64,000 nucleotides of DNA from an uncultured Acetatifactor sp. (lineage in GTDB: Bacteria; Bacillota; Clostridia; Lachnospirales; Lachnospiraceae). The notes under the pieces were generated by a model that saw only the letters and a program-made list of their open reading frames with translations, was not told the origin of the DNA and searched no databases. Positions within the stretch are counted from its first letter, which is position 1; the number at the start of each line of letters is the position of its first letter. The stretch is taken from positions 1 through 64,000 of the forward strand of contig CANREV010000008.1 of the NCBI GenBank assembly GCA_947629645.1. Direction: 5' to 3'. This document shows, piece after piece, positions 3,055 through 58,934 of this stretch. The translations under genes were made by a program, and so were the position numbers.

Positions 3055-5115
3055 TCAGCTTCCAGCCCCTTCGGCAGCTTGAAACGAAAGCGCGGTTCCT
3101 TCCGGATAGCGGCGAATTTTATCGCTATATTCAAAATGTGTTAATATCACAATCAGCTCCTCCCCCTGAATGGCTACATCCGCGGAAAAAGCGTGCCCCA
3201 TATCGTCCACCCCCGTAAAGGATAATATCCCGGAATCACTATCATAGCTTCCGGCGGCATTGGAAACATACATTATTTTATAAAGTCCAAAAGAAACGGT
3301 ATATTTTCCGGCTCCGTCATAAGAAATGATCAGCTCGGAAACTTTATCCCTGTCACCTTCAGCGGCCTCGTACCTGTAATATGTGCCTACGGGAAATGTT
3401 TCCGGAGGGACTGTTTCTGACACATTACTTTCCGCGGACGTGGCTGGCGCGTATTCGGAAAAGTCATACCACAGGGCGTCTTCTTTTTGATCCTGTTTAC
3501 TCAGCGCAAGCCGGAAATCTTCCTCCACGGCAGGCTGATGATCCACCACAAACGTGTTTAATCCGCCCGCGCCGCCGCTGCCATAAGTCATTTTGTCTAT
3601 CGTATAGCCCGTTTCCGTAAATCCGGTTATGACGCAGATGCCGCTTTCTGCCGAACCTGTCATATCCGAACCATAGTAAGTGCCGTCCGTCTTTAAATTT
3701 ACAAAAGACCTGTAATTCGCGCGATAAGCATATATTTTTCCATCGATCTGATGCAGAATCAGATATCCCCCTGTATCGCCGGATACGCCATATACGGAAA
3801 GGACCGCTTCCATCGTCCCGTCACCCTCTAAATCCAGCACGGCAAAGGACCATATTTTCATATAATTGTCGTTGGCATCGAACAGGGCCGGAACCTCTTC
3901 AAGGGTTATTTTCTCCGGCGTTGCCAGTTCATCCGATACATAGAAAAAAGGGGCGGATTCCAAAAACGCCTCTATGACATATGTGTCATTTTGTATGCCC
4001 ATACCCGTCTGCGCGTCTCTGTCCGATTCCGTATCCGTCCGGGCGTCCACATCTGTCTGTCCTCCCGTACCCGCCTGTACTTCTCTGTCCGCCTGCGCGT
4101 CTCTGTCCGATTCCGTATCCGTCCGGGCATCCGCATTTTGTGTTTTCGTCTGTCCCGATGTAACGAAAAAAACTGCCAGAGCGGTAACGATCAAAACACA
4201 TACAACGGATATCCCGATCGTTGCTTTTCTTGTCTTCATGATGGCGGCGATCCTTTTTTCTATGGCATTTTTGCTAAAACCGCTGTAAAAGGAAGGCAAT
4301 CCGCTTTTTTTCGCTTCCATATCGATCAATACATTTGCGTACGCGGACCGTGAGGATATGCCGAAACGGCGGACTACGCTTTCATCACAGGCAAGTTCCA
4401 GATCTCTGTTGAGTAAAAAATACATCATCCACACAAACGGATTGAACCAGTGCACACACAAAGCGAATGTAAAAAGCAGTTTTGTCACGGTATCATACCG
4501 GCTGATATGAATATATTCATGCAGCAGAATGTATTCCAGACGGTCTGTGTCTTCCCAATCGGTCCCGGCAGGCATCAGGATAACAGGGCGCCAGACGCCG
4601 TATGTCAGAGGCGCGTCAATCTGATCCGACTGCCTGATGGAAATAGGGCGCTTTCGCCTGTGGGCTGCAAGCCATTCCCGCACAAAGCGGTTATGGACAG
4701 GCGCCGCTTCCCGGAATTTCCATAACCAGCGCAGATACAGCGCTGCGAAACAAGCTGCCAGAAACAGCATTCCCACGCACCAGATCAGAGGGTAAACGGG
4801 AAGCCTCTGCCCGGTTTGCGCACCCTCGGGATACCGCACGGGTCGCGGCCTGTCCGCTCCCTGCTCCCTCCGCGCTTCCGGAAACATGTTTTCCATAGGA
4901 GTTTCTGAAAACAGATCCACGGATGAATTTCCGCGCATCAGCGAATAAGCGCTGAGGGCGGAGGGAATGGAAAAGGGAATCAACAGTCTGAAAAGAGCCA
5001 TATACCATAAAATTAAAAACACCTTTTTAGGCAGTCTCCTGACGGTGGCAGCACGGACAACGATAATCGCCAGAATCAGAATTGCTCCGGAAAAACTCAT
5101 CTGCAATAAACTCAT
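3055..5115 (-). CDS. BlaR1/MecR1-type M56 metallopeptidase with a non-canonical C-terminal extracellular region
   Basis: Multiple TM segments, HExxH motif (LLHEYIHISRYDTVTKLL) and LACDESVV; downstream acidic repeat linker and non-penicillin-binding C-terminus. Confidence 0.85.
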   Translation of the reverse strand: MSLLQMSFSGAILILAIIVVRAATVRRLPKKVFLILWYMALFRLLIPFSIPSALSAYSLMRGNSSVDLFSETPMENMFPEARREQGADRPRPVRYPEGAQTGQRLPVYPLIWCVGMLFLAACFAALYLRWLWKFREAAPVHNRFVREWLAAHRRKRPISIRQSDQIDAPLTYGVWRPVILMPAGTDWEDTDRLEYILLHEYIHISRYDTVTKLLFTFALCVHWFNPFVWMMYFLLNRDLELACDESVVRRFGISSRSAYANVLIDMEAKKSGLPSFYSGFSKNAIEKRIAAIMKTRKATIGISVVCVLIVTALAVFFVTSGQTKTQNADARTDTESDRDAQADREVQAGTGGQTDVDARTDTESDRDAQTGMGIQNDTYVIEAFLESAPFFYVSDELATPEKITLEEVPALFDANDNYMKIWSFAVLDLEGDGTMEAVLSVYGVSGDTGGYLILHQIDGKIYAYRANYRSFVNLKTDGTYYGSDMTGSAESGICVITGFTETGYTIDKMTYGSGGAGGLNTFVVDHQPAVEEDFRLALSKQDQKEDALWYDFSEYAPATSAESNVSETVPPETFPVGTYYRYEAAEGDRDKVSELIISYDGAGKYTVSFGLYKIMYVSNAAGSYDSDSGILSFTGVDDMGHAFSADVAIQGEELIVILTHFEYSDKIRRYPEGTALSFQAAEGAGS
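4009..4128. repeat. Intragenic 84-bp-period duplication encoding DARTDTESDRDAQ twice
   Basis: ctgcgcgtctctgtccgattccgtatccgtccgggc at 4009-4044 and again at 4093-4128. Confidence 0.85.
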
Positions 5116-51099: not shown

Positions 51100-52737
51100 T
51101 TACTGGTTTGCCTGATACTGCTCGTTGATCTCAGCGATAATGGTATCATAGCCCGCAGCTCTGATATCGTCCAGGCCTTTCTTAAATTCATCAAGGCTGA
51201 TAGCGCCGCAGATGTACTGAGTTCTGAGAGCAGAAGCCTGAGTATCCAGATCCGCACCACTTTCTGCATAAGCAGCAGAATTTACCTTGTAGGAAAGAGC
51301 GGGATCGATCTCAGCGTAAGGAAGAGCTGCTTCATATGCCGCATTCTGAGCGTCATCTCTCTCGGTGGTAACGGTAGCTACTGTGGTTGCCTCCGTAGAA
51401 GGAAGGAAGGTAAGCAGCTGGTTCAGACCCTGATAGTTAGCGGCAAGCGCGGTATCCTCAGCGTCAAGCTTAACAATTTTTCCCTGCTCGTCCAGCTCAT
51501 AGTTTACACCCTCCAGACCGTACTGAGTCAATACCAGCATCTCAGGGTCACTCAGCTTGTCAAGAACGGTCAAAGCCGCCTCGATCTTCTCGGGAGTGTC
51601 CAAAGTAGATGCGGACAGAGTGTAGAATCCGTTATAGCCTGCGGTTGCAAGAGTATGACCGTTGACTGCACCATAGAGTACCATGGAAGCGGCCTCGTCA
51701 GGGTTTACTACGGAAGGGGTAAAGGTATCCTCTGCTACGAAATAATTCCAGATCCTCTTACCGGAGTCCATAACATCGATGTATACGCCGTTCTCACCCT
51801 TCTTGCAGCCTTCAGACCAGCTGTCGGTAGGGATGGAAGGCCAATCCTGAGGCATCAGCTTCTCGTCATACAGCTTCTTGATGTACTCGACAGCCTCAAA
51901 GTACTCGTCCTGCATCCACACGGGAACAAGCTTTCCGTCTACCTCAGCCCAGCCGTTGCCGCATCCAAACCAGGTCTGGATGATATCGAAAGGACCTGTA
52001 TAGGATGTCATCTCCATGGGATATTCACAGAAGCCCTCATGCTTGTCATTGCCGTTCTTCATAGCTACCAGCATGTTATACACATCATCGGGAGTAGCGT
52101 TAGCGGGGAGCTCTACGCCCAGAGCCTCAGCCCAGTCCTGACGATAGCAGAGACCGTAACGACCTACCACACGGGTACGGGGCAGGGCGATCAGTTTGCC
52201 GTCTACGGTCAGGTTTGCGGCAACGTCCTTGGACATGCCGGACAGATTGGGATACTTTGCGCTGTCCCAGATGTAATCGTTCAGGTCAATGAATGCACCT
52301 GCTTTTGCCGCGTTTACAACGTCACCGGTCATGGTTCCGCCGTAAGACATGATCATAGGCATGGTGGAAGGGCTCGCATAATACAGAGAGTTCTTCTCGC
52401 TCAGCGCATCGTTCGCCACCCAGGTAAGATCCAGATCATGACCCACATAGTCCTCGATCTTCTGCATGATCTCCTCGGCGTAATCACCTACATTGTTGTT
52501 GCCGGCGTTCAAATCGATAACGCTCCACGTGATCGTCTGACGCGCTACGGTAGTCTCGCCGCCCTCGCTGCCGGTGCTGCTCTCACTGGAGCCGGCCGCA
52601 GACTGTCCGGCATTAGAGCTGTCCTGGGCGGAAGACTGTGAGCTGTCTCCCCCATTGCCTCCGCAGGCTGCCAGACCAAGGGTCATCGCGGAAGCCAGCG
52701 CCAGAGCCAAGACTCTGCTAATGGTTTTCTTTTTCAT
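51100..52737 (-). CDS. LplA-like extracellular solute-binding lipoprotein (CUT1 family)
   Basis: Lipobox LGLAACGG, Ser/Gly-rich linker, family-1 SBP architecture. Confidence 0.88.
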   Translation of the reverse strand: MKKKTISRVLALALASAMTLGLAACGGNGGDSSQSSAQDSSNAGQSAAGSSESSTGSEGGETTVARQTITWSVIDLNAGNNNVGDYAEEIMQKIEDYVGHDLDLTWVANDALSEKNSLYYASPSTMPMIMSYGGTMTGDVVNAAKAGAFIDLNDYIWDSAKYPNLSGMSKDVAANLTVDGKLIALPRTRVVGRYGLCYRQDWAEALGVELPANATPDDVYNMLVAMKNGNDKHEGFCEYPMEMTSYTGPFDIIQTWFGCGNGWAEVDGKLVPVWMQDEYFEAVEYIKKLYDEKLMPQDWPSIPTDSWSEGCKKGENGVYIDVMDSGKRIWNYFVAEDTFTPSVVNPDEAASMVLYGAVNGHTLATAGYNGFYTLSASTLDTPEKIEAALTVLDKLSDPEMLVLTQYGLEGVNYELDEQGKIVKLDAEDTALAANYQGLNQLLTFLPSTEATTVATVTTERDDAQNAAYEAALPYAEIDPALSYKVNSAAYAESGADLDTQASALRTQYICGAISLDEFKKGLDDIRAAGYDTIIAEINEQYQANQ

Positions 52738-52832: not shown

Positions 52833-53744
52833 TCAGCCCTTTACCGCTCCGACCATAACGCCCTTTGTAAAGTACTTCTGCACAAAAGGATAAACGACCA
52901 GGATAGGCACCGTGGCGATAACGGTGCAGGCCATCTTCACCGCCTTGTCGGGCGGCGCGCCGAACATGTCATAATCCAGTATCTGGTTCTCTGCGATCTT
53001 GGATGTCTGCAGGATAATGGATCTCAGCTGAATCTGAATCGGGAACTTCTCCGCACTGGACAGATAAATCATGGCGTTGAAGTAATCATTCCAGAAGCCA
53101 ACGCCGTAGAACAGGGAAATAGAGGCGATAACGGGCTTGGACAGAGGCAGCGCCACCTTCGTAAAGATCTGCAGATCGTTGGCCCCATCCATATAGGAGG
53201 CCTCGTCCAGTTCCACCGGCAGACCCTGGAAAAATTTCTTAATGATAATCATATTAAAAGGACTGATCAGGCCCGGCAGAATCAGAGCCCACCAGCTGTC
53301 CAGCAGGCCATAGGCCTGGAACACCAGATAGGAAGGAATCATGCCGCCGCTGAACAGCATGGTAAAGATCACCATGTTCATCATCCAGTTGCGTCCCCTG
53401 AAATGGGACTTGGAAAGAGGATACGCAAAGGTCAGGGAAAACAGCATACAGCTGGCGGTGCCAAGGATCGTAAGGAGGACGGAATTCTTCAGTCCCCTCA
53501 GGATATTGGCTGTTTTGACAGCATACTGGTATGCGTTCAGTGACCACTCGCTGGGAATGATGAAGAACGCTTTTTCCGTCAGCTCCTTCTCCGTTGCAAA
53601 AGAGCCTGCGAACACATACAGGAAAGGAAGCACAGTGCTCAGGGCGATCAGGCCCAGCACAACATAAATAATCACGTCCACGATGCGGTCGCCGGTGCTC
53701 TTGCGTACCTTGGCGCCCTCTTTAACTTTATGTTCTTTAGCCAT
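52833..53744 (-). CDS. Carbohydrate ABC transporter permease (LplC/AraQ-like)
   Basis: EAA-like loop LDEASYMDGANDLQIFTKVALPLSKPVIA and 6 TM helices. Confidence 0.92.
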   Translation of the reverse strand: MAKEHKVKEGAKVRKSTGDRIVDVIIYVVLGLIALSTVLPFLYVFAGSFATEKELTEKAFFIIPSEWSLNAYQYAVKTANILRGLKNSVLLTILGTASCMLFSLTFAYPLSKSHFRGRNWMMNMVIFTMLFSGGMIPSYLVFQAYGLLDSWWALILPGLISPFNMIIIKKFFQGLPVELDEASYMDGANDLQIFTKVALPLSKPVIASISLFYGVGFWNDYFNAMIYLSSAEKFPIQIQLRSIILQTSKIAENQILDYDMFGAPPDKAVKMACTVIATVPILVVYPFVQKYFTKGVMVGAVKG

Positions 53745-53763: not shown

Positions 53764-54741
53764 CTAATACAATCCGCTCTCGCCAAACAGCTTCGCCACC
53801 CTGTCTGCCAGGAGCACCATGATCATGCCCACCACAGACTTAAACATGCCTGCAGCCGAGGAGAAGGAATACATTCCGCTTCGGATACCCTTTGTGTATA
53901 TGTAGGTGTCGAACACTTCCGCCCTGGAAATATTCAGATCGTTGCGCATCATAAAGATCTGCTCATAGCCCGTGTTCAAAATGCCGCCCACACGCATGAT
54001 CAGCATCATCACGATAGTGCCTCTGATAGCAGGCAGCGTAATGTGCCACATCAGTCTCCAGCGTCCGGCTCCGTCCACTCTTGCCGCCTCATACAGTTCC
54101 TGGTCTACACTAGACAGCGCCGCCAGAAATACGATGGTGCCGTAACCGGTCTCTCGCCAGATATCCTGTCCTACGATCAGTCCCCAGAAAGCGGAGGCAT
54201 TCTGCAGGATATCAAAGCTCTTTCCTCCGGAGATGGCCTGATAAAGCAGATTGAAAACGCCATCGGATACGTTGAAGAGCTGGTAGGTCAGGCTGGTCAC
54301 GATAACCCATGACACGAAATGCGGGATGTATATCAGCGTCTGAACCACTCTCTTGTAACCGCTGTGTCTGACCTCATTCAAAAACAGCGATAGGATAATC
54401 GGCGCGGGGAAATACAATACCAGCTGCAGCAGACTGATACCCAGCGTATTGATTAACAGCTTCATAAAATCATTGTTGCTGAAGAACTTTCTGAACTGCC
54501 CAAGCCCCACCCATGGGCTGTCCCATATGCCGACAAAGGGCGAATATTCCTTGAAGGCAATCACCAGTCCGCCCATCGGAATGTAACGGAACATGATAAA
54601 ATAAATGAAACCCGGCAGGAACAGCAGATATAACCACTTGTGCTGCACGATATATTGCCAGGTACTCTTACGATGGGGCACGATTACCTGTCCGTTGGAA
54701 AGTCTGACCGCGCCCTTTTTTCCTTTGATTTTTTCTGCCAT
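53764..54741 (-). CDS. ABC transporter permease (LplB/UgpA-like)
   Basis: ELYEAARVDGAGRWRLMWHITLPAIRGTIVMMLI EAA motif; KHKWLYLLFLPGFIYFIMFRYIPMGG. Confidence 0.92.
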   Translation of the reverse strand: MAEKIKGKKGAVRLSNGQVIVPHRKSTWQYIVQHKWLYLLFLPGFIYFIMFRYIPMGGLVIAFKEYSPFVGIWDSPWVGLGQFRKFFSNNDFMKLLINTLGISLLQLVLYFPAPIILSLFLNEVRHSGYKRVVQTLIYIPHFVSWVIVTSLTYQLFNVSDGVFNLLYQAISGGKSFDILQNASAFWGLIVGQDIWRETGYGTIVFLAALSSVDQELYEAARVDGAGRWRLMWHITLPAIRGTIVMMLIMRVGGILNTGYEQIFMMRNDLNISRAEVFDTYIYTKGIRSGMYSFSSAAGMFKSVVGMIMVLLADRVAKLFGESGLY

Positions 54742-54902: not shown

Positions 54903-54967
54903 AAAAAAACAAAAAATAATCATTTAATTTACCATTTCCCCTGTCGGTAAATCAAATGATTATTTTT
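54903..54967 (-). terminator. Strong rho-independent terminator of the AraC regulator gene
   Basis: 22-bp arms AAAAATAATCATTTGATTTACC / GGTAAATTAAATGATTATTTTT (one mismatch) followed by a T-rich tract on the minus strand. Confidence 0.88.
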
Positions 54968-54986: not shown

Positions 54987-56813
54987 CTATATTTTCTCTT
55001 CCCGTTTCTGCTTTCGGTATTTTCCGGGTGTAGCGCCTGTACTCTTGCTAAAAAATCTGATAAAATTCTGAGCGTTTGTGTAATTCATTTCCACAGCGAT
55101 TTCCGACACGGTCATATTCGTCTCAACCAAAAGCCGTTTCGCTTCCTCCAGCTTGTATTTCTCCAGAAAATCGCTGAAAGTCTTTCCATTCTCCGCCTTG
55201 ATCAACTTCCAGATATATGTGGGATGCACACCCAAAAGCTCCGCGCACTCCTGCAGAGACAGATTCCCCCGCCTTGCCCTGATCAGATGCTCAATATCCT
55301 CCAGCATGGAGTAAGACTTCCTCTCCAACAGCCTTCCCCTGACCTCCAGAATAGGGTCAATCAGCCGATTTATCATATACCACTTCACCCTGTGGGGCTC
55401 CGGAACCTCCAACAGTTCCTCATAGACTCTGTAAAGGCCGTCCGGATACAGCGATTCCAGATCCACATTTACCTGCTGCGCCGCAAGCAGCAGAGCGTTT
55501 ATAAATCTTAAAAGGTACAGGGTCAGCCTGTCATAAGAATACCCCTCCTGCGCCAGATATCGGACAAAATCCTCCACCGCGCTGCAGCACTGCTCTCTCT
55601 CCATGTTTCTGACCCCTGTCTTCAGCCTTTCCTCGTAGGTATCGTCATAAAATGTGCTGGAGAACTCCAGACCAGGCTGCAGGAAAAAGCAACCGGGCAA
55701 ATTCGGCGCAAACGTCCCGGAACGCTTCCTTTCCTCAGAGTTGACAATCGCGTCAACACTCTCCCGATATGCCTTATAAAAGCAGGCAGGATCCCTCTGC
55801 CAGGCGCTGACACCCGCCAGAATCCGCAGTCCGCATACCGCTGCAGCGGTCCTGGAAAGCCCCTCATAATACTCTCTCACCTGTCCGGCCAGCTCCTCCT
55901 CATCACCTCCGGAAAAAACCGCAACGACAGAGCATCTGCCGCACACCGGCGGCAGACACGCTAACCTTCTTAGTTCCTCCGACATTTCCGTCAGAATCCT
56001 CTCACAGACAGCCGACTCATCGATTTCCTCCTGCCGCTGCTCATCCTTAAGATCCAAAACGACCACCATCACAGCATACAATCCGCCATCGGAGAGAACA
56101 TTTTTCACAAACGCATCACACTCTGCCCCATGGATTGCCTCTCCCCTGATCAGCCGCAGTTCAAAAATCTTCTGAAGTTCACTTTGCATTTGAAGCATAC
56201 TGTCTTGAAGGAGATAGTTGTTCTCCTCAAGCCTTTGAGCCGGACGGCACAGACCACAGACCATTGCTGTATATGCGATCCCCTCTGCCAGCACCAGCCC
56301 CAGAAGCCAAAATATCCTGACACGCACTCCTTCCCCGCTGCGGAAGGGATCACAAAATACCGCAAAGCTGTACTCGGACAGCCGGGATTCTCCCAGCGCA
56401 GCTACATAGGCTTCATTACCCCCCCCCCGGTATTGTTCAAGGTGTTCTCCCGCTTTCTCATTCCTCAAAAGTTCCAAAGCTGCCTGCTCCAGATCATCGT
56501 CCGTGGAAAAGACCGCACTGCCCTGTCCATCCATGACAACGAACTTTTCCCCAGAGCCCGCGTAACCGGCCAGCCATTGCTCCCATTCCTTCAGGCCGGT
56601 GTCACCTGACGCCGCCAGATATCCGTCCAGTCCCGCCGCCAGCCTCTCGGCGCTGCCATCGGCCGCCTCATAAGCGCTTTTCAGGCATTCAGAACGATAA
56701 TCCCTATAAAAGGCCACCACAAAAAACAGGGTGAGTATCCCCATAAGCCCTGTTACATAAATACATATTTTCCAACGGCACTTTTCTCTTTTATTTTCCA
56801 CACCGTTTCCCAT
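54987..56813 (-). CDS. Membrane-bound AraC-family regulator (YesN/YtdP-like one-component)
   Basis: Two TM segments flanking an extracellular domain; C-terminal HTH LSLQECAELLGVHPTYIWKLIKAENGKTFSDFLEKYKLEEAKRLLVETNMTVSEIAVEMNYTNAQNFIRFFSKSTGATPGKYRK. Confidence 0.9.
   Translation of the reverse strand: MGNGVENKREKCRWKICIYVTGLMGILTLFFVVAFYRDYRSECLKSAYEAADGSAERLAAGLDGYLAASGDTGLKEWEQWLAGYAGSGEKFVVMDGQGSAVFSTDDDLEQAALELLRNEKAGEHLEQYRGGGNEAYVAALGESRLSEYSFAVFCDPFRSGEGVRVRIFWLLGLVLAEGIAYTAMVCGLCRPAQRLEENNYLLQDSMLQMQSELQKIFELRLIRGEAIHGAECDAFVKNVLSDGGLYAVMVVVLDLKDEQRQEEIDESAVCERILTEMSEELRRLACLPPVCGRCSVVAVFSGGDEEELAGQVREYYEGLSRTAAAVCGLRILAGVSAWQRDPACFYKAYRESVDAIVNSEERKRSGTFAPNLPGCFFLQPGLEFSSTFYDDTYEERLKTGVRNMEREQCCSAVEDFVRYLAQEGYSYDRLTLYLLRFINALLLAAQQVNVDLESLYPDGLYRVYEELLEVPEPHRVKWYMINRLIDPILEVRGRLLERKSYSMLEDIEHLIRARRGNLSLQECAELLGVHPTYIWKLIKAENGKTFSDFLEKYKLEEAKRLLVETNMTVSEIAVEMNYTNAQNFIRFFSKSTGATPGKYRKQKREEKI
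56419..56428. repeat. C10/G10 homopolymer inside the AraC regulator coding sequence
   Basis: ttaccccccccccggta; coding strand CGG GGG GGG GGT (Arg-Gly-Gly-Gly). Confidence 0.9.
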
Positions 56814-57473: not shown

Positions 57474-58934
57474 TTAATTCCCCGATTTCTCGCAACAGTT
57501 CAGCCTTGCGGCCGGACTGTTGCATTTCTCCTGTTTTCCCTGTCCTTCTGCCAAATCAGGATTCCGCTCTATCCGCCACACCGCCTGACCAGAGCGGTAT
57601 AATCCCAGCTTTTCCTGAAGGGCGGAGGAACTGTCATTTCCAGTTATCACATGTCCGTAAGGCGTCCAGCCCTTTTCCAGCGTTCTGTTGATAACATAAG
57701 CTTCCAGCGAAGAAGCAATCCCCTGTCTGCGGTATGTTTCCTCCACGTACAAAAGTCCCAGACCGCCTTCTATGTGCGTACCTATAAAGCCCACCTGTCT
57801 CTCCCCGACAAAAGCGCCGTACATCGCGCCCTCTCGGATCCGTTCTTCCACATACTCTGCATCGTCATTGTCACAATGTCCTACAACATAATCCAGTTGT
57901 TCCAAAGTAAGTTTCCGGATCTCTTTACAGCGCACTGAGAGAGGGGTCCTGCGCGTATAGACCCACTGATAGCATTCGTTGCGAACAGCAAATTCACCAT
58001 CTTCACACAAAAGCTTTTTCCAAAATGCCTGGGAAGCCACATAGGAACGCGCTTCCTTCGGAGCCAGCGCAAGCAGTCTTTTCCCAGATTTCTCAGAGGA
58101 TGCGGAAACCATACAGGTACCGCATTTTTTGTCATACAGCAGGATCTCATCCCCCTCCCAGAAAAGGATTTCGGCCCTGCCCCTGCTCAGACTTTCTATC
58201 ATGTGGATATTGTCTCTTTTCGCCTTTAACAGTTTTTGGATCAGCCGCTGCTTTCGCTCGTACTTCGCGTATAAGTCCGGTCTGTTCTTTTCCGTCCGCT
58301 CTAAAGACTGCTCCAGCCGCCATTTAGCGATTTTTCGATGATCGCCCGAAAGAAGAACCTCGGGCACTTTTATGTTATGCCAGACTTCAGGGCGGGAATA
58401 CTGCGGATATTCCAGCAAGTCATTGAAAAAGCTCTCCTCCTCCGCGGAATTGTCGTTTCCCAGCACTCCCGGAATCAGCCTTGCGATGGCATCGATCATC
58501 ACCATGGCCGGCAGTTCCCCGCCAGTCAGAATGTAATCACCCAGCGAGATCCGATCTGTCACAATCTCCTCCAGCACCCGCTCGTCAATCCCTTCATAAT
58601 GTCCGCAAAGAAAGATCAGTTCATCCTCCCCTGCCAGTTCCTGCGCCCTGCTCTGGTTAAACGGCATACCCTGCGGAGTAACGTAGATCGTCCTGATGTT
58701 ATCGCCTCGGGCAACATCTTTCCAGGCATCAAAAACGGGCTGCGCCTGCATCAGCATTCCGGCGCCGCCTCCGTAAGGATAATCATCCACTTTCTTATGT
58801 TTGTCCAGCGTATAGTCCCTGATATTGACCGCATTCAGAGATATCAGCTCTTTTTGGGCCGCCCTGCCGATAATACTGGAAGTAAAAACACCTGTGATCA
58901 TCTCGGGGAACAAAGTCAAAACATGGATCTTCAT
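57474..58934 (-). CDS. trmD: tRNA (guanine37-N1)-methyltransferase TrmD fused to a C-terminal GNAT-type acetyltransferase domain
   Basis: Residues 1-~240 TrmD (GGGAGMLMQAQP, LCGHYEGIDERV, SLGDYILTGGELPAMVMID); residues ~245-465 GNAT-like with GLGLLYVEETYRRQGIASSLEAYVINRTLEKGWTPYGHVITGNDSSSALQEKLGL. Confidence 0.9.
   Translation of the reverse strand: MKIHVLTLFPEMITGVFTSSIIGRAAQKELISLNAVNIRDYTLDKHKKVDDYPYGGGAGMLMQAQPVFDAWKDVARGDNIRTIYVTPQGMPFNQSRAQELAGEDELIFLCGHYEGIDERVLEEIVTDRISLGDYILTGGELPAMVMIDAIARLIPGVLGNDNSAEEESFFNDLLEYPQYSRPEVWHNIKVPEVLLSGDHRKIAKWRLEQSLERTEKNRPDLYAKYERKQRLIQKLLKAKRDNIHMIESLSRGRAEILFWEGDEILLYDKKCGTCMVSASSEKSGKRLLALAPKEARSYVASQAFWKKLLCEDGEFAVRNECYQWVYTRRTPLSVRCKEIRKLTLEQLDYVVGHCDNDDAEYVEERIREGAMYGAFVGERQVGFIGTHIEGGLGLLYVEETYRRQGIASSLEAYVINRTLEKGWTPYGHVITGNDSSSALQEKLGLYRSGQAVWRIERNPDLAEGQGKQEKCNSPAARLNCCEKSGN

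Follow-up and report, generated by a model that had tools for sequence, protein, structure and literature searches.

A poly-G tract in a membrane AraC-family sensor-regulator as a candidate contingency locus within a genome-wide set of tracts in an Acetatifactor species

The run of ten guanines in the coding sense of a membrane AraC-family regulator, located in a 64,000-nucleotide stretch of an uncultured Acetatifactor genome (the window), is best read as a translational contingency locus whose switching would toggle the adjacent sugar transporter, and as one member of a genome-wide poly-G set present in several species; we give this reading a probability of about 0.74. It is based on the tract itself, its reading frames and stops, an excess of long tracts over the genome, their placement in promoters, frameshifted sister genes, a homologous run in related regulators and a conserved gene order. 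The features of the window and of the rest of its genome (G000, 3.15 Mb) are collected in Table 1.

Table 1. Features of the window (plain coordinates) and of other parts of G000 (contigs C, retrieved stretches L)
Feature	Location	Strand	Basis
Lipoprotein, presumed sugar-binding protein of the transporter	51100..52737	-	Position, conserved order; no Pfam match
ABC permease 2 (BPD_transp_1), sugar type	52833..53744	-	Pfam, conserved order
ABC permease 1 (BPD_transp_1), sugar type	53764..54741	-	Pfam, conserved order
22-bp inverted repeat with T-rich tail, terminator-like, between regulator and transporter genes	54912..54967	-	Repeat search
Membrane AraC-family sensor-regulator, 608 aa, in frame (ON)	54987..56813	-	ORF, domain search, model
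AraC-type helix-turn-helix domain (HTH_18), residues 524-602	55008..55244	-	Pfam, structure search
Second TM helix, residues ~166-188, lost in both OFF frames	56250..56318	-	Hydrophobic stretch; model helix from residue 167
Predicted extracellular sensor, residues ~36-164; tract in turn before strand 135-142	56322..56708	-	Family alignment, model
TAG reached at G9 after V-M-K-P-M (five codons)	56402..56404	-	Frame reading
TAA reached at G11 straight after the tract	56416..56418	-	Frame reading
Candidate switch, G10 homopolymer, codons 129-132 of the regulator	56419..56428	-	Sequence, run scan
First TM helix, residues ~15-34	56712..56771	-	Hydrophobic stretch in sequence; helix 4-72 in model
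Single 486-aa frame joining TrmD (tRNA m1G methyltransferase) to a GNAT acetyltransferase domain at its C-terminus	57474..58934	-	
Promoter-spacer tracts, spacers of 16 to 20 bases	C4, C24, C36, C37, C42, C56, C59, C74		
Promoter-spacer stretches other than L036 and L041	L032, L040, L043, L045, L046, L047		
TIR/TPR/DUF6273 protein directly behind a spacer G10	L047:2895-5738 (C74)		
Rhamnogalacturonan lyase (RGL11), 1742 aa; coding tract, predicted ON	L033:6497-11722 (C6)		
Nucleotidyltransferase-like protein; coding tract, predicted ON	C35		
TylF methyltransferase; coding tract, predicted ON	C40		
130-aa protein; coding tract, predicted ON	C47		
Second rhamnogalacturonan lyase (RGL11); predicted OFF, signal-peptide frame stops 3 codons past the tract, 1807 codons open in another frame	L031:6430-11961 (C1)		
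LysM/DUF6273 surface protein; predicted OFF, 840 open codons beyond the tract	C20		
FkbM methyltransferase; predicted OFF, 328 open codons beyond the tract	C35		
Giant flagellin, ~1650 codons; predicted OFF, G10 tract at 3279-3288	L038:2685-7632 (C30)		

The regulator possesses the C-terminal double helix-turn-helix domain characteristic of the AraC/XylS family. HTH_18 scores 68.8 bits against a Pfam cut-off of 33.6, and the structure search matches the C-terminal fold to the DNA-binding domains of YesN, AraT and AraC. The AlphaFold model (mean pLDDT 74.4, pTM 0.48) shows two long helices with further helices and a small sheet lying between them, and the residues encoded by the tract form a turn running into the sensor strand; the initial annotation had placed the tract in the extracellular sensor between the two TM helices, with which this predicted topology agrees. 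The sensor has no Cache match in Pfam and no sensor match among the structure matches listed, and the search of genome_contigs returned no named relatives of the regulator.

Reading of the sequence and a run scan of the window both find the tract as ten C on the forward strand, bearing out the position and the codon (near 130 of 608) first reported for it. In the coding sense, the G run extends from the second base of codon 129 to the second base of codon 132 (CGG GGG GGG GGT, R129 G130 G131 G132), and the second-longest G/C run in the window is 6. The ORF is intact at G10, which is the in-frame (ON) length, and a change of one base is predicted from the reading frame to truncate the product. 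As had been claimed for a slip in either direction, the stops reached at G9 and G11 confirm that both products end upstream of the second TM helix and without the HTH_18 DNA-binding domain. Ten G are long enough to slip, for which 7-8 or more are taken as sufficient; a cut-off of 7 or more is used in Campylobacter, and every poly-G/C tract of at least 8 in one C. jejuni strain shows variability (PMC6321876). A promoter created by the tract inside the regulator gene was also considered and rejected, as the flanks match poorly (5/12 mismatches) and no promoter is called there.

We infer that the regulator tract varies in length, that the regulator controls the transporter and that the cell benefits from the switch. 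Replication slippage would alter the length of G10 by one base. Cells with G10 would produce the full sensor-regulator and be able to induce the transporter, and those with G9 or G11 would produce a fragment of ~132-137 residues, lacking the second TM helix and the DNA-binding domain, with no induction. Switching of the sensor-regulator would in this way decide, for a fraction of the cells, whether the downstream sugar ABC transporter is on or off.

Both permeases score above the BPD_transp_1 cut-off and, together with the adjoining lipoprotein, have the layout of an Lpl-type transporter. The order of regulator, two permeases and lipoprotein is kept in seven other species (G012, G108, G111, G160, G103, G092 and G061), which supports the putative control of the adjacent transporter by the regulator. 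Because the regulator gene is followed by an inverted repeat with T-rich tails, the transporter probably has a promoter of its own, on which the regulator would act. The next gene along in G092 and G061 resembles the exo-beta-1,4-galactosidase BT4151, with a score under its curated cut-off. Given this neighbor and because two tract-bearing rhamnogalacturonan lyases are encoded elsewhere in G000, it is no more than a reasonable guess that the regulator-transporter pair serves the uptake of pectin side chains. B. subtilis YesS is a membrane or sensor-coupled AraC regulator of pectin or arabinan uptake, and we know of no homopolymer switch in regulators of the YesS or AraT type. YesS and the AraT of Geobacillus (PDB 6swi), another such regulator, resemble the present case in having an AraC DNA-binding domain and lying beside sugar ABC transporter genes.

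Over the whole of G000, pattern searches and retrieved stretches yield 22 G/C runs of length 7, 12 of 8, 6 of 9, 10 of 10, 2 of 11 and 1 of 12, a distribution with a second mode at 10. The 19 runs of 9-12 compare with ~2 expected by geometric extrapolation from runs of 5-6, which were counted in a 255-kb sample chosen around long tracts. Runs of 7 lie below the decay from 5-6 (22 vs ~63 predicted), despite the excess at 9 and above. In Campylobacter, tract lengths peak at 9 and 10 (PMC6321876) and are held there because G8 tends to gain bases and tracts of G11 or more tend to lose them (PMC8355987). The long tracts of G000 consist of eight in promoter spacers, nine in coding sequences and two without a clear gene (C11, C28), so that about seventeen candidate slippage switches are found in this genome, the regulator tract among them; the tracts are longer and more numerous than chance and lie at expression-controlling sites. 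Among 138 genomes of the genus, most have 0-3 runs of at least 9, and about a dozen have 10-27. The host is described as a sporulating clostridium because SpoIVA is present in the genome, together with its general gene content. Loss of mismatch repair was rejected as the cause of the tracts: mutS and mutL are present in G000, mutL occurs in almost every genome of the genus, and 8/8 genomes checked for mutS have it. Because these genes are present, slippage may proceed at a lower rate than in C. jejuni, which is without functional mismatch repair (PMC8355987).

The promoter-spacer tracts (8/19 long runs) lie between a TTGACA -35 hexamer and a TATAAT-like -10 of the form TA(N3)T, on the G strand, a placement shared by 0/1059 of the 4-7-base G/C runs in the 255-kb sample (Fisher 2e-15). 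C24 (L036) and C37 (L041) have perfect hexamers with spacers of 19 and 20 bases, exceeding the usual 17. The genes behind these tracts include a sortase (C4), an ABC transporter (C37) and lipoproteins or secreted proteins (C42, C56, C59). The TIR/TPR/DUF6273 protein of C74 is a possible switchable defense or signaling gene. Over the 138 genomes, the pattern has 40 matches in 24 genomes, and the reversed control has 0. A mobile element spreading the promoter tracts was considered and rejected, as the sequences flanking the hexamers are, by eye, different from locus to locus. In genome_contigs (257 Gb), the pattern occurs in at least 117 stretches from many phyla, against a rough chance estimate of ~45 for uniform random sequence, a comparison to which we attach no weight. 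The matches listed (L103-L182) include Treponema, Alphaproteobacteria, Saccharibacteria, Schaedlerella, Mediterraneibacter and others, some of which will be due to chance; the alphaproteobacterial isolate Emb289P3bin18 has at least four matches to the G9 form of the pattern, and several such in one genome look real.

All nine coding tracts of G000 have G on the coding strand; five are in frame, including the regulator, and four are frameshifted with long open second halves (328-1807 codons), such that ON and OFF states both appear to be present. Because the frames remain open so far past the frameshift, a switched-off state would fit these four genes better than an old pseudogene. In the C30 flagellin, for instance, Flagellin_N lies ahead of the tract, Flagellin_C ends the 1447 codons past it, and the gene would be in frame at G9. 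The two RGL11 lyases are giant cell-surface proteins with the tract just past the signal peptide, frameshifted in C1 and in frame in C6. By our own reading of retrieved stretches, G108 has about two ON and five OFF coding tracts, and G111 has 11 ON and four OFF. Their targets include a PMT-type mannosyltransferase, a LysM protein, acyltransferases, a fucosyltransferase and a sensor kinase. Contig C129 of G111 carries at 137-166 kb (L276, L275) a surface-glycan cluster with at least five coding tracts of poly-G, among them those of a FucT-like fucosyltransferase and of acyltransferases.

Homopolymers can also cause slippage at the RNA level. RNA-level slippage or programmed frameshifting would yield a fixed mixture of products from unchanged DNA, and the sister species G108 and G111, which have the same lengths at the shared tracts compared, would fit such a maintained length; this equality also weighs against the contingency reading. 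This explanation is very improbable, since it leaves the promoter-spacer tracts unexplained and the length at the regulator site differs between species, from G7 to G10.

The regulator family was assembled from genus searches with the sensor and linker, giving 16 copies in 15 genomes, one genome per species. At the aligned sensor hairpin, the run is G10 in G000, G9 in G111 and G108, G8 in G160, and G7 in G012, G061, G103, G140 and one G066 copy; the remaining seven copies have 2-4. Runs of G7-G10 thus occupy the same hairpin in 9/16 copies, eight of which lie outside G000 and carry G7-G9. All 16 copies are in frame, and no OFF state or length variant of the regulator was seen among them, with each species represented by one genome. 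The regulator nearest to that of G000 (G012, 69% identical) has G7 in a genome without long tracts, and those of G160, G108 and G111 form a group separate from G000 and G012, for which reason the hairpin run has probably been lengthened more than once.

Among the rivals, a constraint on the protein is the one that carries real weight, although we consider it unlikely. It supposes that the hairpin needs two or three glycines before the strand, that GGG is used by chance and that an occasional slip is a liability. Many members of the family indeed have a Gly-Gly hairpin, for which GGG GGG is a frequent coding, and all copies are in frame. Furthermore, synonymous codon shuffling within the regulator gene gives a longest run of at least 10 in 5.4% of trials, because Arg-Gly-Gly-Gly sits at the tract; taken singly, the regulator tract is moderately unusual, which is suggestive only, unlike the genome-wide set. 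However, of the ten copies that have a Gly-Gly pair at this position, nine encode it with the longest G run, even though only 31% of their Gly codons are GGG; as the copies are related, this count is not independent. In addition, constraint does not explain why regulator runs of at least 8 occur only in the four genomes with at least 11 long tracts (4/4 vs 0/11, p 7e-4, uncorrected for relatedness), nor does it explain the promoter-spacer and other coding tracts.

The same coincidence could follow from neutral expansion, in which a replication bias of some lineages lengthens G runs that the cell tolerates but does not exploit: long runs cluster in about a dozen genomes, and the regulator tract lengthens in the same ones. 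We regard it as quite improbable, because the placement is not neutral, in promoter spacers and with G on the coding strand throughout, and because the targets are flagellin, surface enzymes, glycan genes and lipoproteins. Homopolymers are also prone to errors of sequencing and assembly. As the source of this tract, error is highly improbable, in that the assembled length keeps the 608-codon frame, separately assembled relatives have in-frame G7-G9 at the same codons, and the excess of long runs is seen in many genomes of the genus. A slipped-strand contingency locus, as proposed in the initial annotation, is therefore the preferred reading, backed by the genome-wide G9-G12 excess, the placement in promoter spacers, the four frameshifted sister genes and the G7-G9 runs in the eight other copies.

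The best-known cases of simple-sequence phase variation are from host-adapted Gram-negatives, and in gut Gram-positives attention has mostly been on DNA inversions. Established examples of homopolymer switches in coding sequences and promoters come from Campylobacter, Bordetella and Bifidobacterium (PMC6321876, PMC1891110, PMC9187656) and from Neisseria (PMC5320596). The Campylobacter phasome shares with G000 coding-strand poly-G with most frequent lengths of 9-10, an ON state in about half of the coding tracts, flagella and surface-glycan targets, and both coding and intergenic tracts (PMC6321876, PMC8355987). Unlike Campylobacter, G000 has a large share of promoter-spacer tracts, a sporulating clostridial host and a sugar sensor-regulator as the focal target. 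In Bordetella, the C6/C7 tract of bvgS is likewise a homopolymer in a membrane sensor gene that truncates the product and switches a regulon, and C-stretches in fim promoters change transcription in the same genus; bvgS is, however, a sensor kinase with a short tract, whereas the present gene encodes an AraC-type one-protein sensor-regulator with a longer one (PMC1891110).

Among gut Gram-positives, a few bifidobacterial pilus loci have been studied for homopolymer switching (PMC9187656). In the commensal Bifidobacterium breve, an intragenic G-tract of 11-12 sets the frame of a sortase-dependent pilus, and deep sequencing found a mixture of lengths that shifted in mice; it differs from G000 in that the targets are pilus structural genes, in one or two clusters per genome, with no promoter-spacer set (PMC9187656). 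The Spy1336/Spy1337 locus of Streptococcus pyogenes is another case where homopolymer length governs both an AraC-family regulator and its target, but there the T-tract lies between genes and acts on transcription, whereas here the G-tract lies in the coding frame of the regulator (PMC7098570). A literature search covering mostly open-access papers turned up no poly-G phasome described for Lachnospiraceae or Clostridia. Going by this search, both a set of such size in a sporulating clostridial genus and the targeting of a sugar sensor-regulator would be new.

A wider proposal is put forward tentatively, at a little under even odds: that several species of a spore-forming clostridial genus, with mismatch-repair genes retained, run poly-G switches on the scale of Campylobacter. 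These would randomize flagellin, surface pectin lyases and glycan enzymes and, via spacer tracts, lipoproteins, a sortase and the TIR protein, and more than one lineage would have extended the glycine hairpin of a sugar sensor into a switch, with the sensor as the point where populations hedge their sugar uptake. If this is true, cultures and assemblies of such species would combine ON and OFF variants for flagellin, surface polysaccharide and pectin use. Genes annotated as pseudogenes would in some cases be switchable, and a single genome sequence would be insufficient to predict the response to diet.
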